From Chloroflexota bacterium (GTDB lineage: Bacteria; Chloroflexota; Chloroflexia; JAMDCE01), in the NCBI GenBank assembly GCA_023489135.1, contig JAMDCE010000603.1, positions 1 through 12,044 on the forward strand: DNA of 12,044 nt, given 5' to 3'. Under the pieces are notes generated by a model. That model saw only the letters and a program-made list of their open reading frames with translations. It did not search any database and was not told the origin of the DNA. Positions 5,077-12,044 of the stretch are shown here, in pieces; position 1 is the first letter of the stretch; each line of letters opens with the position of its first letter. Both the position numbers and the translations under genes were made by a program.

Positions 5077-6127
5077 ATGCAAGAGGTGCGCGTTGGCTCG
5101 CGAATGCTGGGTCACGGACAGCCGGTGTTCATCATCGCCGAAGCTGGCGTGAATCACAACGGCAGCCTGGAAACCGCTAAACGGCTAATTGATGCTGCGG
5201 TGGAAGGGGGAGCCGATGCCGTCAAGTTTCAATCGTTTTCGGCTAAGAGCCTGGCGTCAGTGTATGCCCCCAAGGCCGAGTACCAGAAGGATACAACAGG
5301 CGCAGTTGAAAACCAACTCGACATGCTTCGACGTCTGGAGCTCTCGCCTGCCAACCACTGGACGCTGGCCCGGTATGCAGCGCAGCACGGCAATTACCTT
5401 TCTGTCCACGCCCTTCGATACAGCAAGTGCTGACCTTCTGGTGGAACTCGGTGTTCCCGCCCTGAAGGTTGGCTCAGGGGACTTAACGAACTTGCCGCTG
5501 CTTCGCCATGTTGCTGGTAAGGGGCTGCCACTGTTGATCTCTACAGGGATGGCGACCCTAGGAGAGGTTGAAGAAGCCCTTGGGGTCGTAGCCGAAGCTG
5601 GGAACGAACAGGTAGTGCTGTACCATTGCGTCTCCAGCTACCCTGCGCCCGTTGAGCAGACAAACCTTAGGTCGCTCATTACCATGGCCCGGGCCTTTCG
5701 GGTGCCGGTAGGCTACTCGGACCATACACCCGGCATTGCGGTACCCTTGGCGGCCGTCGCCCTTGGTGCTGTTTCCATTGAAAAGCACTTCACCCTTGAC
5801 CGACGAATGGGTGGCCCAGACCACCAATCGTCCCTGGAGCCCGGTGAGCTCTCAGAATTGGTTCGTTCTATACGCCAGGTGGAGGTCGCCTTGGGAGATG
5901 GGCGGAAGCGCCCGGCGCCAGCCGAGAAAGATGTCGCCCTGGTCGCCAGGCGCAGCATCGTAGCTGCCGTAGAGGTAGCCCCCGGGGCGGTACTTGCTGG
6001 GGATTTGATCGCCGTTCAACGCCCCGGTACAGGAATTCCTCCCAAGTACTTGGATCTGCTCCAGGGCCGCAGGACTCGCAGGGGGCTCCGCGCCGGGGAA
6101 CCCATAACCTGGGACGACCTCGTGTAG
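5077..6127 (+). pseudogene. neuB: N-acetylneuraminate (nonulosonate) synthase NeuB, split by a one-base frameshift
   Basis: NeuB condenses ManNAc, or a 2,4-diacetamido analogue, with phosphoenolpyruvate to give a nonulosonic acid in the cytoplasm. The ATG start at 5077 follows a GAGGG site. The first frame carries AEAGVNHNGS (residues 21-30) and KFQ (50-52), then ends at TGA 5431-5433. The remainder is in the next frame from FLSTPFD at 5399 to TAG at 6125-6127. It includes SGDLTNLPLLRH, EKHFTLDR, GGPDHQSSLEP and a C-terminal SAF (antifreeze-like) domain over about the last 65 residues. Removing one A of the AA at 5392-5393 restores the reading HGITFLSTPFD and a 349-residue protein, normal for the family. 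Both halves are otherwise intact with no further stops, so the break is either recent or a sequence error. The gene sits directly before neuC, which supports the assignment. Sialic and legionaminic acid synthases cannot be separated with confidence by eye. Confidence 0.9.
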
Positions 6128-7296: not shown

Positions 7297-8433
7297 GTGC
7301 ACAAGACGGAACGTTGGAACGGAGTACTGGTATTCCTGGCAGCTTCACTGAGCGCCGCATTCATTGGCGGTTTCCCCAAGGTCGGCTGGGGAGTAGTTTT
7401 GGCAATCGTCCTTGTTTTGATCTTCGCCTATGGTAGCCGGTTCGTGGGGGCGTCTGTCATGCTACCGCTTTCCATCTACCTCGTCCTGCTCATGGGGGGC
7501 GCATTTCGCTTTGACCTCTATGACCAGGCACGTGTTCTCAGGGGGGCCTCAGTGCTGAATTTGATACGGACCCTCCATCCCCATGCCCCCAGGTTCCTGG
7601 TGGCCTATCCGGCCATTTTGGTCGCAAACTGGTCCGGGCTTGATATCGACCGGGTTTACGGCTTCTATGCCGGTCTCAGCATGCTGGCGTTGTGGTTTGT
7701 ATTGCGACAGATAGCGCTAGTGTTAGGTAGGCCAGAGTCCGAGTCGCGGCTCTATTACGCAGCCGCCATTATACTGTCCTTAGTCATGCACGGGCGACTC
7801 ATTCACGCGTTCCTGGGTATGGCCATGGTTCTCTTGGCGCAGACCCGGCAGGCCGTTTTTGGGCGCCTCAAGATAGGGGACGGTTTCTTGTTACTCGCAG
7901 GGCTGTTCTTGGCATCTGTAAGCACGGGCACTCTGGTCGTAGCCACACTACAAATCATAGCCGTGCAACTATGGTTCCCGGGCACGTCTGGCTGGTCGAA
8001 GCGACTGGCCTGGGTTGCTCTACTGCCCGCGGCGGTTGTGCTGCCCTATGCGGCCGAAATGATCAGGAAGCTGGTTACGTTTTACGGCGGGGGCTCGCAA
8101 TTCATCTTTGGGGTGCTTAACCATGGGGCGGGGAGGCTATTGCTTAAACCGCCAATCACGCCAGTTGCAGCGGTGGGACTGGTTGCCGGTGCCCTAGTGG
8201 CCCGTGATGTTTGGTTCTTTGTCACCCGTGAGGCACGCTCACTTACACCTGCCCTCATCTCCATCGCACTGTCCATCGCGGGCGGTGTCTTTGGATACTC
8301 GACAGGGCTTATGCTTATGCCTGGGGCCCTGGTAATCGGCTCCATGAGCTACTCCTGGCTCTCCAGCGGAACACGCAGTCTGCCTCTGCGAACGGGTGGT
8401 GATCTCTGCAATGTCGGCAGAAGCTATACCTAG
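7297..8433 (+). CDS. Polytopic membrane protein, candidate Wzy/EpsG-like polysaccharide polymerase
   Basis: A very hydrophobic protein of 378 residues with roughly ten to twelve predicted membrane segments, at about 10-25, 31-46, 52-70, 100-112, 121-143, 153-183, 195-225, 238-254, 286-302 and 316-352. I do not recognise a firm family signature. A polar loop with FRFDLYDQARVLRG (70-83) and a HGRLIH motif (165-170) recall EpsG/Wzy-like polymerases, which are poorly conserved. The start is GTG at 7297, ten bases after the neuC stop, with a weak upstream site. The 3' end overlaps neuA by 23 bases, so it is co-translated inside the sialic-acid block. That position makes polymerisation or export of a nonulosonate-containing chain the best guess. 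A flippase is less likely because the length and topology are short of the 12-14 helices of MOP-type flippases. Confidence 0.6.
   Translation: MHKTERWNGVLVFLAASLSAAFIGGFPKVGWGVVLAIVLVLIFAYGSRFVGASVMLPLSIYLVLLMGGAFRFDLYDQARVLRGASVLNLIRTLHPHAPRFLVAYPAILVANWSGLDIDRVYGFYAGLSMLALWFVLRQIALVLGRPESESRLYYAAAIILSLVMHGRLIHAFLGMAMVLLAQTRQAVFGRLKIGDGFLLLAGLFLASVSTGTLVVATLQIIAVQLWFPGTSGWSKRLAWVALLPAAVVLPYAAEMIRKLVTFYGGGSQFIFGVLNHGAGRLLLKPPITPVAAVGLVAGALVARDVWFFVTREARSLTPALISIALSIAGGVFGYSTGLMLMPGALVIGSMSYSWLSSGTRSLPLRTGGDLCNVGRSYT
8394..8404 (+). promoter_or_regulatory. Ribosome binding site that fixes the neuA start
   Basis: GGGTGGTGATC matches the anti-16S consensus AGGAGGTGATC at 9 of 11 positions and ends six bases before ATG 8411. 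It lies inside the 3' end of the upstream membrane-protein gene. This favours ATG 8411 over the in-frame GTG codons at 8396 and 8399, which sit inside the site itself. Confidence 0.7.
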
Positions 8434-9765: not shown

Positions 9766-11598
9766 GTGTGTGGCATTGCTGGGGTCCTAGACCTAAATGG
9801 GAAGTCCTTGGATGATCCCAACGTCTTGGTTCAGATGTGCGACCAGATGACTCACCGCGGACCCGATGATCGCGGAGTCTTGGTGCAAGGGTTTCTGGGA
9901 CTTGCCATGCGTCGGCTCCGCATCATTGACCTGAAGACAGGCGATCAGCCGATTCCGAATGAGGACGAGTCGATATGGGTTGTCCACAACGGTGAAATCT
10001 ACAATTATCTAGAGCTACGCTCAGACCTGATGAGCCGCGGGCATCGCTTTCGGACGAACAGCGACTCCGAGGTGCTTGTGCACCTGTATGAAGAGTACGG
10101 CACAGAGATGTTCGCGAAGCTTAACGGTATGTTCGGCTTCGCCCTGTGGGACGGAACAAAGCGAGAACTTGTCGTAGCGCGCGACCGGTTGGGGAAGAAG
10201 CCACTCCACTATGCGGTTCTGGATGGACGGCTGATTTTTGCGTCAGAGATCAAGGCGCTGCTCGCGTACCCGGGATTTCCCCGTCGGGTCAATCTCGAGG
10301 CGCTGAACCAACTGCTGACCTACAACTATATTCCAGCTCCGCTCACTGTTTTTCAGGATGTCTCAGAGCTACTCCCCGGCCACTTCCTTATCGCCCGCGG
10401 CGGGACGGTGAAGACTCAGGCGTATTGGACCCCAAGGTTAGCTCCGGAAGAGCGTTCCGAGCGTGAATGGGTCGACGACATCCTCGAAACCCTTCGCGAA
10501 GCCACCCGAGTGCGACTCCGCAGTGACGTGCCCCTCGGTGCATTCCTTAGCGGCGGCGTTGATTCAAGCTCGGTTGTTGCCACGATGAGTGCTCTTAGCG
10601 ATCAACCCGTAAGCACCTTCTCAATTGGTTTTACCGACCCGCGGTTTGATGAGCTTCCTTACGCGCGTCAAGTGGCCGGCCTCTTTGCCACGGATCATCA
10701 CGACCTAGTGGTCGATCCGGACATGTTTATTGGCATGCTGGAAAGAGTAATTTGGCACCTGGATGAACCTTTTGGGGACGCGTCGTTCCTTCCGACGTTA
10801 GTGCTTTCACAGTTGGCGAAAGAGACAGTGACAGTTGTCCTCACGGGTGACGGGGGGGACGAACTGTTTGCGGGCTATGAACGAGTCCGCGACTTTATAG
10901 CCCTCCACCCGCAAGCTGCTAGTCCGGTAGCAGTAGCCCAGCAGTACGCGGACTTCACTGCTGTATTCAATCAGACCCTAAAAAACCGGTTGCTCTCGGG
11001 AGGCCTCGCTGATGCTGTCCATACTACGGACTCAAGCCACGTGTTTGCTCAGTTGTTCAATCAGGCCGGCTCCAAGAACCCCCTGGATATGATTCTCTAT
11101 GGCGACATCCGCTCATTGCTCAATAACAACAACTTGGTCAAACCTGATCGCATGGCAATGGCCGTGGCGCTAGAGGCACGGTCTCCATACCTCGATCCGC
11201 GTATGGTTGACCTATCCTTGCGCATGCCGTCGAACCTGAAGCTGCGAGGCCAGGAGACGAAATACATTCTAAAGAAAGCTCTCGAAGTCGAAGGCACCTT
11301 ACCCCATGAAATTCTGTATCGGAAGAAGCAAATGTTTACGGTGCCCATCGGGGAATGGTTTCGCGACAAGCTCAGGCAATACAGCCGCGAGATCCTACTG
11401 GACTCTCGCACTGCGCAGCGCGGCTATTTCAACACTGCGACTGTGAGTGAGATGTTGGACCAACATCAGGCAGGTGCCGTAAACTACACCCGCCAGTTGC
11501 GCCTCTTGCTTACTGTCGAGCTATGGCATCGCCTCTTCATAGATCGTACAGATTTGGTGCCACCACCGGCAGCGGAAACCTCGATTCACCATCCCTAG
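9766..11598 (+). CDS. asnB: Class II glutamine amidotransferase of the asparagine synthase (AsnB) family
   Basis: A protein of 610 residues with the full two-domain AsnB architecture. The N-terminal glutaminase domain has the Cys2 nucleophile directly after the start (MCGIAG), HNGEIYNY (74-81), SDSE (99-102), GMFGFALWD (121-129) and ARDRLGKKPLHY (138-149). The synthetase domain has the pyrophosphate loop LSGGVDSSSV (261-270), then DGGDELFAGY and EARSPYLDPRMVDL. The start is GTG 9766, because Cys2 must follow it; GAGGTGA at 9750-9756 is the binding site. In polysaccharide clusters such paralogues often amidate sugar acids or related intermediates rather than make asparagine, and the location here suggests the same, but the substrate is unknown. 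Bases 10298-10383 within it recur inverted at the window's right edge. Confidence 0.92.
   Translation: MCGIAGVLDLNGKSLDDPNVLVQMCDQMTHRGPDDRGVLVQGFLGLAMRRLRIIDLKTGDQPIPNEDESIWVVHNGEIYNYLELRSDLMSRGHRFRTNSDSEVLVHLYEEYGTEMFAKLNGMFGFALWDGTKRELVVARDRLGKKPLHYAVLDGRLIFASEIKALLAYPGFPRRVNLEALNQLLTYNYIPAPLTVFQDVSELLPGHFLIARGGTVKTQAYWTPRLAPEERSEREWVDDILETLREATRVRLRSDVPLGAFLSGGVDSSSVVATMSALSDQPVSTFSIGFTDPRFDELPYARQVAGLFATDHHDLVVDPDMFIGMLERVIWHLDEPFGDASFLPTLVLSQLAKETVTVVLTGDGGDELFAGYERVRDFIALHPQAASPVAVAQQYADFTAVFNQTLKNRLLSGGLADAVHTTDSSHVFAQLFNQAGSKNPLDMILYGDIRSLLNNNNLVKPDRMAMAVALEARSPYLDPRMVDLSLRMPSNLKLRGQETKYILKKALEVEGTLPHEILYRKKQMFTVPIGEWFRDKLRQYSREILLDSRTAQRGYFNTATVSEMLDQHQAGAVNYTRQLRLLLTVELWHRLFIDRTDLVPPPAAETSIHHP
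10298..10383 (+). repeat. Inverted repeat, left arm (inside asnB)
   Basis: These 86 bases are identical, base for base, to the reverse complement of 11959-12044. The reading frame of asnB runs cleanly through this copy and encodes a normal part of the enzyme (about residues 178-206), so this is the native copy. The match stops at 10384/11958, where the bases differ. At the other end it is limited by the window edge, so the true repeat may be longer. Confidence 0.96.
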
Positions 11599-11608
11599 TG
11601 AGTCGGCT

Positions 11609-11617
11609 GGAGGTGAT
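11609..11617 (+). promoter_or_regulatory. Strong ribosome binding site of the aldolase gene
   Basis: GGAGGTGAT is a near-perfect anti-16S match. The only suitably placed in-frame codon after it is CTG at 11622, eight bases after the GGAGG core. The next in-frame ATG (11643) is 29 bases after that core, and GTG 11613 and GTG 11598 lie within or before the site. Confidence 0.65.
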
Positions 11618-11621
11618 ACTC

Positions 11622-11999
11622 CTGTTACCTCGTCTAATCCTCATGCTGATTACGAACCGACCGGATATTGCCCAAGCCGCCGAGGCTGCCGGTGTTGATC
11701 GTATCTTCGTGGATCTCGAACGCCTGGGGAAGCTTGAGCGACAGGGCCATCTTGATACGCATATTTCGGACCACGCGTTTGAAGACATCGCCAACCTGCG
11801 CCCTTCCGTGAATAAAGCCCAAATCCTGGCGCGCATCAATCCTATCAATATCGGCACTCCCCATGAAGTTGAGCAGGTTCTCAGCATGGGTGCTGATATC
11901 GTCATGTTACCTATGTTTCGGACCCGCAAGGAAGTGTCGCAGTTTGTGAATCTGGTTGGTGGCCGGGGAGTAGCTCTGAGACATCCTGAAAAACAGTGA
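11622..11999 (+). CDS. HpcH/HpaI-family aldolase, 5' part only; 3' end replaced by inverted asnB sequence
   Basis: The start of a class II, metal-dependent aldolase/citrate-lyase-like TIM-barrel protein. These enzymes cleave or form C-C bonds using pyruvate- or PEP-like substrates. Visible family sequence includes LMLITNRPDIAQAAEAAGVD, then RIFVDLERLGK with ERQGHLDTHIS, ARINPINIGT, and GADIVMLPMFRT followed by FVNLVGGR. Full proteins are about 250-290 residues, but here homology stops at LVGGR (about 11966), after roughly 115 residues. The last codons up to TGA 11997-11999 (GVALRHPEKQ) are translated from the inverted asnB copy and are not family sequence. The start is unsure: CTG 11622 fits the binding site best, with GTG 11598 and ATG 11643 as alternatives. 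It lies just after asnB, which suggests shared work on a sugar-acid intermediate. The real gene probably continues in the genome beyond the junction. Confidence 0.75.
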   Translation: MLPRLILMLITNRPDIAQAAEAAGVDRIFVDLERLGKLERQGHLDTHISDHAFEDIANLRPSVNKAQILARINPINIGTPHEVEQVLSMGADIVMLPMFRTRKEVSQFVNLVGGRGVALRHPEKQ

Positions 12000-12044
12000 G
12001 CGGAGCTGGAATATAGTTGTAGGTCAGCAGTTGGTTCAGCGCCT
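11959..12044 (-). repeat. Inverted repeat, right arm: reverse-complement copy of asnB 10298-10383
   Basis: A perfect 86-base reverse-complement copy of an internal asnB segment, reaching the last base of the window. It interrupts the aldolase reading frame. The junction has short microhomology: native aldolase coding for LVGGR and the asnB complement both plausibly contain GTGGCCGG, so the switch falls somewhere in about 11959-11966. There is no transposon end or target duplication. The most likely cause is an inverted chimera formed in amplification or assembly; a real inverted duplication is possible. Confidence 0.96.

Follow-up and report, generated by a model that had tools for sequence, protein, structure and literature searches.

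Gene content of the locus

The window, that is the whole stretch of DNA analysed in this work (12,044 nt), is a surface-polysaccharide locus, as judged from the genes predicted in it. An O-antigen ligase/TPR protein, a Wzz-like protein (25.4 bits, just below the Pfam cut-off of 25.5), a nucleotide-sugar epimerase/dehydratase, a NeuB-like reading in two frames and a NeuC-like epimerase are accompanied by a protein of 378 residues, a cytidylyltransferase, a sugar transferase, an asnB gene and an aldolase gene. NeuB and NeuC are names which we take to be appropriate on the basis of sequence resemblance and Pfam families; the NeuB pieces were compared with relatives by tblastn alone, outside the Pfam scan. 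The 378-residue protein (7297-8430) has no match in Pfam, and stretches of it are 25-30% identical to sequences found in the related loci L003, L006, L007, L040 and L056. From its position in the locus, one may guess at a polysaccharide polymerase, or at some other membrane protein.

The two genes closest to the right end of the window lie on the plus strand. The asnB-like asparagine synthase gene (9766-11598; PF00733 and PF13537) has an intact reading frame. The gene next to it encodes an aldolase of the HpcH/HpaI type (PF03328), of which the 5' part is present, from 11607 to 11966; the start position is provisional, and the corresponding database protein, P0001, begins at the ATG at 11643. 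Among 65 related genome loci, 21 have an asnB match of any kind, and in two of the 65 (L052, 8166-10327; L057, 8165-10342) asnB is found immediately 5' of a full-length aldolase gene, on the same strand; the window has its two genes in this order too. Gene order differs in other loci, as L003, L004 and L006, where aldolase, sugar transferase and asnB follow each other. Plasmid records yielded 10 matches at 60-80% identity, none over more than 80% of the query, and the eight of these matches that were listed are confined to the asnB part.

The window is probably the entire deposited contig, ending at 12044. Three proteins of the database, P0001 (the aldolase piece), P0121 (asnB) and P0241 (epimerase/dehydratase), are 100% identical to proteins of the window; each entry has one member on one contig, and the longest contig measures 12044 bases, the size of the window. 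Since the window's own proteins sit on a contig of this length, the contig is taken to end where the window does. The nearest relatives, i.e. the next-best matches among those listed, are 75% (aldolase piece), 72% (asnB) and 54% (epimerase/dehydratase) identical, and no further contig with a close copy of any of the three was found among the matches listed. Named relatives of the three proteins are spread over several phyla.

An inverted copy of asnB at the end of the window

The window ends in 86 bases (11959-12044, minus strand) that are the exact reverse complement of a segment located within asnB on the plus strand (10298-10383). All 86 bases are identical, and the spacer between the arms measures 1575 nt; the perfect inverted copy and the separation of about 1.6 kb reported in the initial annotation are both confirmed. 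The copy ends on the last base of the contig. Its left border is sharply set at 11959, because base 11958 differs from the complement of base 10384, and leftward extension of the match is blocked. The first 10 bases at the opposite end of the window have no comparable inverted copy.

Chance could be ruled out as the origin of the repeat. The second-longest exact inverted repeat in the window spans only 14 nt, the longest one in 100 simulated first-order Markov sequences of window-like composition 15 nt, and the longest one separated by a spacer >200 nt in the 65 related loci 32 nt. Terminal copies were monitored separately. At the 130 ends of the same 65 loci the longest exact inverted copy measures 16 bases (L065), the next one 11 bases (L041); 31 of the 65 loci extend to the end of their contig on at least one side (24 on one side, 7 on both). 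Since the genomes of this control set are not known to have been amplified, the comparison tells that long inverted copies at contig ends are unusual, not how frequent they are under multiple displacement amplification (MDA).

The arms might in principle mark the end of a mobile element, or of a programmed inversion. The repeat falls inside two unrelated coding genes, which argues against this possibility, and a Pfam scan of nine translated genes revealed neither transposases nor recombinases. As already stated in the initial annotation, no mobile-element end is recognizable, and an origin of this kind may practically be dismissed.

The interrupted aldolase gene

The aldolase piece matches PF03328 with 29.1 bits, above the curated Pfam cut-off of 25, and the match covers positions 1-106 of the 221 of the profile, hence the first half alone. 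Relatives were taken from the best 120 of 235 database proteins; the alignment with P0001 includes 115 of them, each 230 residues long or longer, and four shorter ones were left out. The last residue conserved in the family is Arg108 of P0001 (11964-11966), found in 113 of the 115 aligned relatives. It is preceded by Gly107, kept in 101 of them, and the conserved Gly-Arg pair corresponds to 11961-11966. In relatives, the residue following Arg108 is Ala or Val (105/115), and the Glu (115/115) and Thr (113/115) that come shortly after are both absent from the window. Median identity to the relatives is 0.55 over residues 1-108 of P0001 versus 0.20 over residues 109-118. Aligned relatives extend by a median of 160 further residues, and P0002, which is 75% identical to the aldolase piece, runs to 276 residues.

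Genome loci tell the same. The Gly-Arg pair occurs in 49 of the 65 related loci, and either Ala (45/65) or Val (10/65) comes next (one locus undetermined). In 62 of the 65, no stop interrupts the aldolase frame for at least 153 residues beyond the match. As to the three exceptions, in L032 the locus, and with it the contig, stops 6 bases beyond the match, in L040 81 residues follow, and in L064 the match is partial, and is followed by 12 residues. Continuous versions of the gene thus exist in related genomes, and the family likeness stops after Arg108, in agreement with the earlier remark that the aldolase is cut exactly at the junction. In some loci (L002, L008, L009, L016, L041 and L055) the frame extends 517-582 residues beyond the match, as though the aldolase were fused to an extra domain.

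The cut in the gene probably does not reflect a genuine mutation. Neither the truncated aldolase nor the short tail of the ORF beyond 11966, which together make up the 118 residues of P0001, should be taken as biology. The idea that an inverted copy is a normal feature of these loci finds no support, given that none of the 65 contains an exact spaced repeat >32 nt, and that the aldolase frame is open in nearly all of them.

Bases common to both sides of the join

Because the asnB copy starts at 11959, while the aldolase reading holds to 11966, the aldolase and the asnB copy would have eight bases in common at the join (11959-11966, plus strand; complement of 10376-10383). The number may rise to nine (11967) if the lost codon started with G, a plausible case because the codons of Ala and Val, the usual next residues in relatives, begin with this base. 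The left limit of the microhomology can be read directly, while the right limit is set through the Gly-Arg pair of the aldolase, and hence from protein conservation in relatives rather than from the uninterrupted DNA of this species. The figure of about 8 bases originally proposed can thus be retained as 8-9. Before any rearrangement the sequence would plausibly have carried an inverted repeat of 8-9 bases, with arms 1575 nt apart.

Origin of the inverted copy

Chimeras formed in the course of MDA have a recognizable profile. According to Lasken and Stockwell (2007, PMC1855051), 406 of 475 chimeras obtained by single-cell MDA of E. coli were inverted, and 337 of these 406 joined segments lying <10 kb apart. 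Complementary bases, up to 21 bp, were found at the join in 93.5% of the inverted joins <10 kb, the 3' end was shifted upstream or downstream about equally often, and roughly one junction per 22 kb was formed. In a larger chimera set (PMC4595205), overlaps peak at 6 nt, most being of 5-8 nt, and distances, which peak at 250-300 nt, lie between 0 and about 5,000 nt.

The contig end fits this profile in several respects. The second segment is inverted (86/86 bases), the two segments are 1575 nt apart, thus within about 10 kb, and the 8-9 complementary bases, the right limit of which derives from proteins, lie within the range of 2-21. Inversion, identity of the arms, distance and truncation point are features of the contig end itself. 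The intervening sequence is skipped, as in the inverted chimeras described in PMC1855051; unlike those, the present one is known from an assembled contig end alone. A point against an MDA origin is that 1.6 kb exceeds the distance peak given in PMC4595205.

Inversion, short distance and microhomology, taken together, lead to reading the contig end as a fold-back chimera, and the view put forward in the initial annotation, that the terminal copy is an artefact, is supported. That the last 86 bases are a laboratory fold-back (inverted) chimera, most likely generated by MDA with phi29 polymerase, is the explanation that we favor with some reserve, the amplification being itself presumed. That the copy is an artefact of one kind or another is highly probable. 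A growing strand may have copied the aldolase up to ...GTGGCCGG, and then been displaced. The displaced 3' end would have paired with the complementary CCGGCCAC of a neighbouring displaced strand (10376-10383), and synthesis would have proceeded in reverse through asnB. The assembler may have used the chimeric read, or reads, to extend a contig end of low coverage by 86 bases, and then halted. The order of these events, as the low coverage and the length of the microhomology, is conjectural.

Artefacts unrelated to MDA deserve consideration. A chimeric read may have been formed during library preparation, or the assembler may have joined the aldolase end to reversed asnB via a short common word. 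The location of the copy at the contig end suits both possibilities. It may also be remarked, on a purely numerical basis, that a de Bruijn graph built with k = 87 would have overlaps of k-1, hence of 86 bases. An 8-9-base common word is far shorter than the words which assemblers usually rely upon. Random ligation should seldom unite two pieces of one contig that lie 1.6 kb from each other. Fold-back within a short library fragment should not span such a distance. Chimeric reads carrying inverted repeats or palindromes, and resembling in this respect the contig end, are also generated in sonicated and enzymatically fragmented libraries (PMC10908179). The libraries described there are human, and 1.6 kb plausibly exceeds an ordinary short-read fragment, so that the likeness is partial. 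An artefact of this type is a possibility to be kept in mind, and is on the whole doubtful.

The last explanation to be weighed is biological. A microhomology-mediated inverted duplication of the chromosome, either a tandem inversion duplication or an event of the template-switch type, would have truncated the aldolase, and put a reversed asnB after it, perhaps along with upstream genes. A real inversion junction gives an identical sequence, and we agree with the earlier statement that a true duplication would look alike. An 8-9-base inverted repeat with arms 1575 nt apart in the parental sequence is the type of substrate that such models assume. Tandem inversion duplications of Salmonella, reportedly described by Kugelberg and coworkers in 2010, are said to be inversions joined at short inverted repeats, as proposed here; such structures should show a second junction as well as the duplicated segment in full, and the contig ends before either. 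A contig break inside an unresolvable repeat would be expected in this case as well, and perfect identity of the arms is compatible with a recent event. Against a duplication, L052 and L057 have a full-length aldolase immediately 3' of asnB, in the same orientation, and none of the 65 loci, all from other species, has an exact spaced inverted repeat >32 nt. A second assembly is not among the database entries for the three proteins searched. Moreover, chimeras are frequent if DNA has been amplified, at the rate mentioned above (PMC1855051). Since the relatives are other species, this evidence weighs little against a recent event in a single strain. The junction 30-mer had no exact match in viral_contigs, a weak test. 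All considered, a real chromosomal duplication is unlikely. Likewise unlikely is its specific form of a natural structural variant, in which a recent inverted duplication in the surface-polysaccharide locus removed the aldolase end and left reversed asnB behind it; if true, such a rearrangement could alter the cell surface.

The fold-back chimera remains our preferred reading of the contig end. A perfect inverted copy of nearby interior sequence at the end of a contig may serve as a cheap flag for chimeras of this kind.

A further irregularity is found in the NeuB-like gene (5077-6127), which is split between two frames that overlap (ORFs 5077-5433 and 5189-6127). In L003, L052 and L057, the three loci in which both pieces are matched, the starts of the two matches lie in a single frame. 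The frame change near position 5400 may denote either a sequence error or a broken gene; a sequence error would fit a weak assembly.
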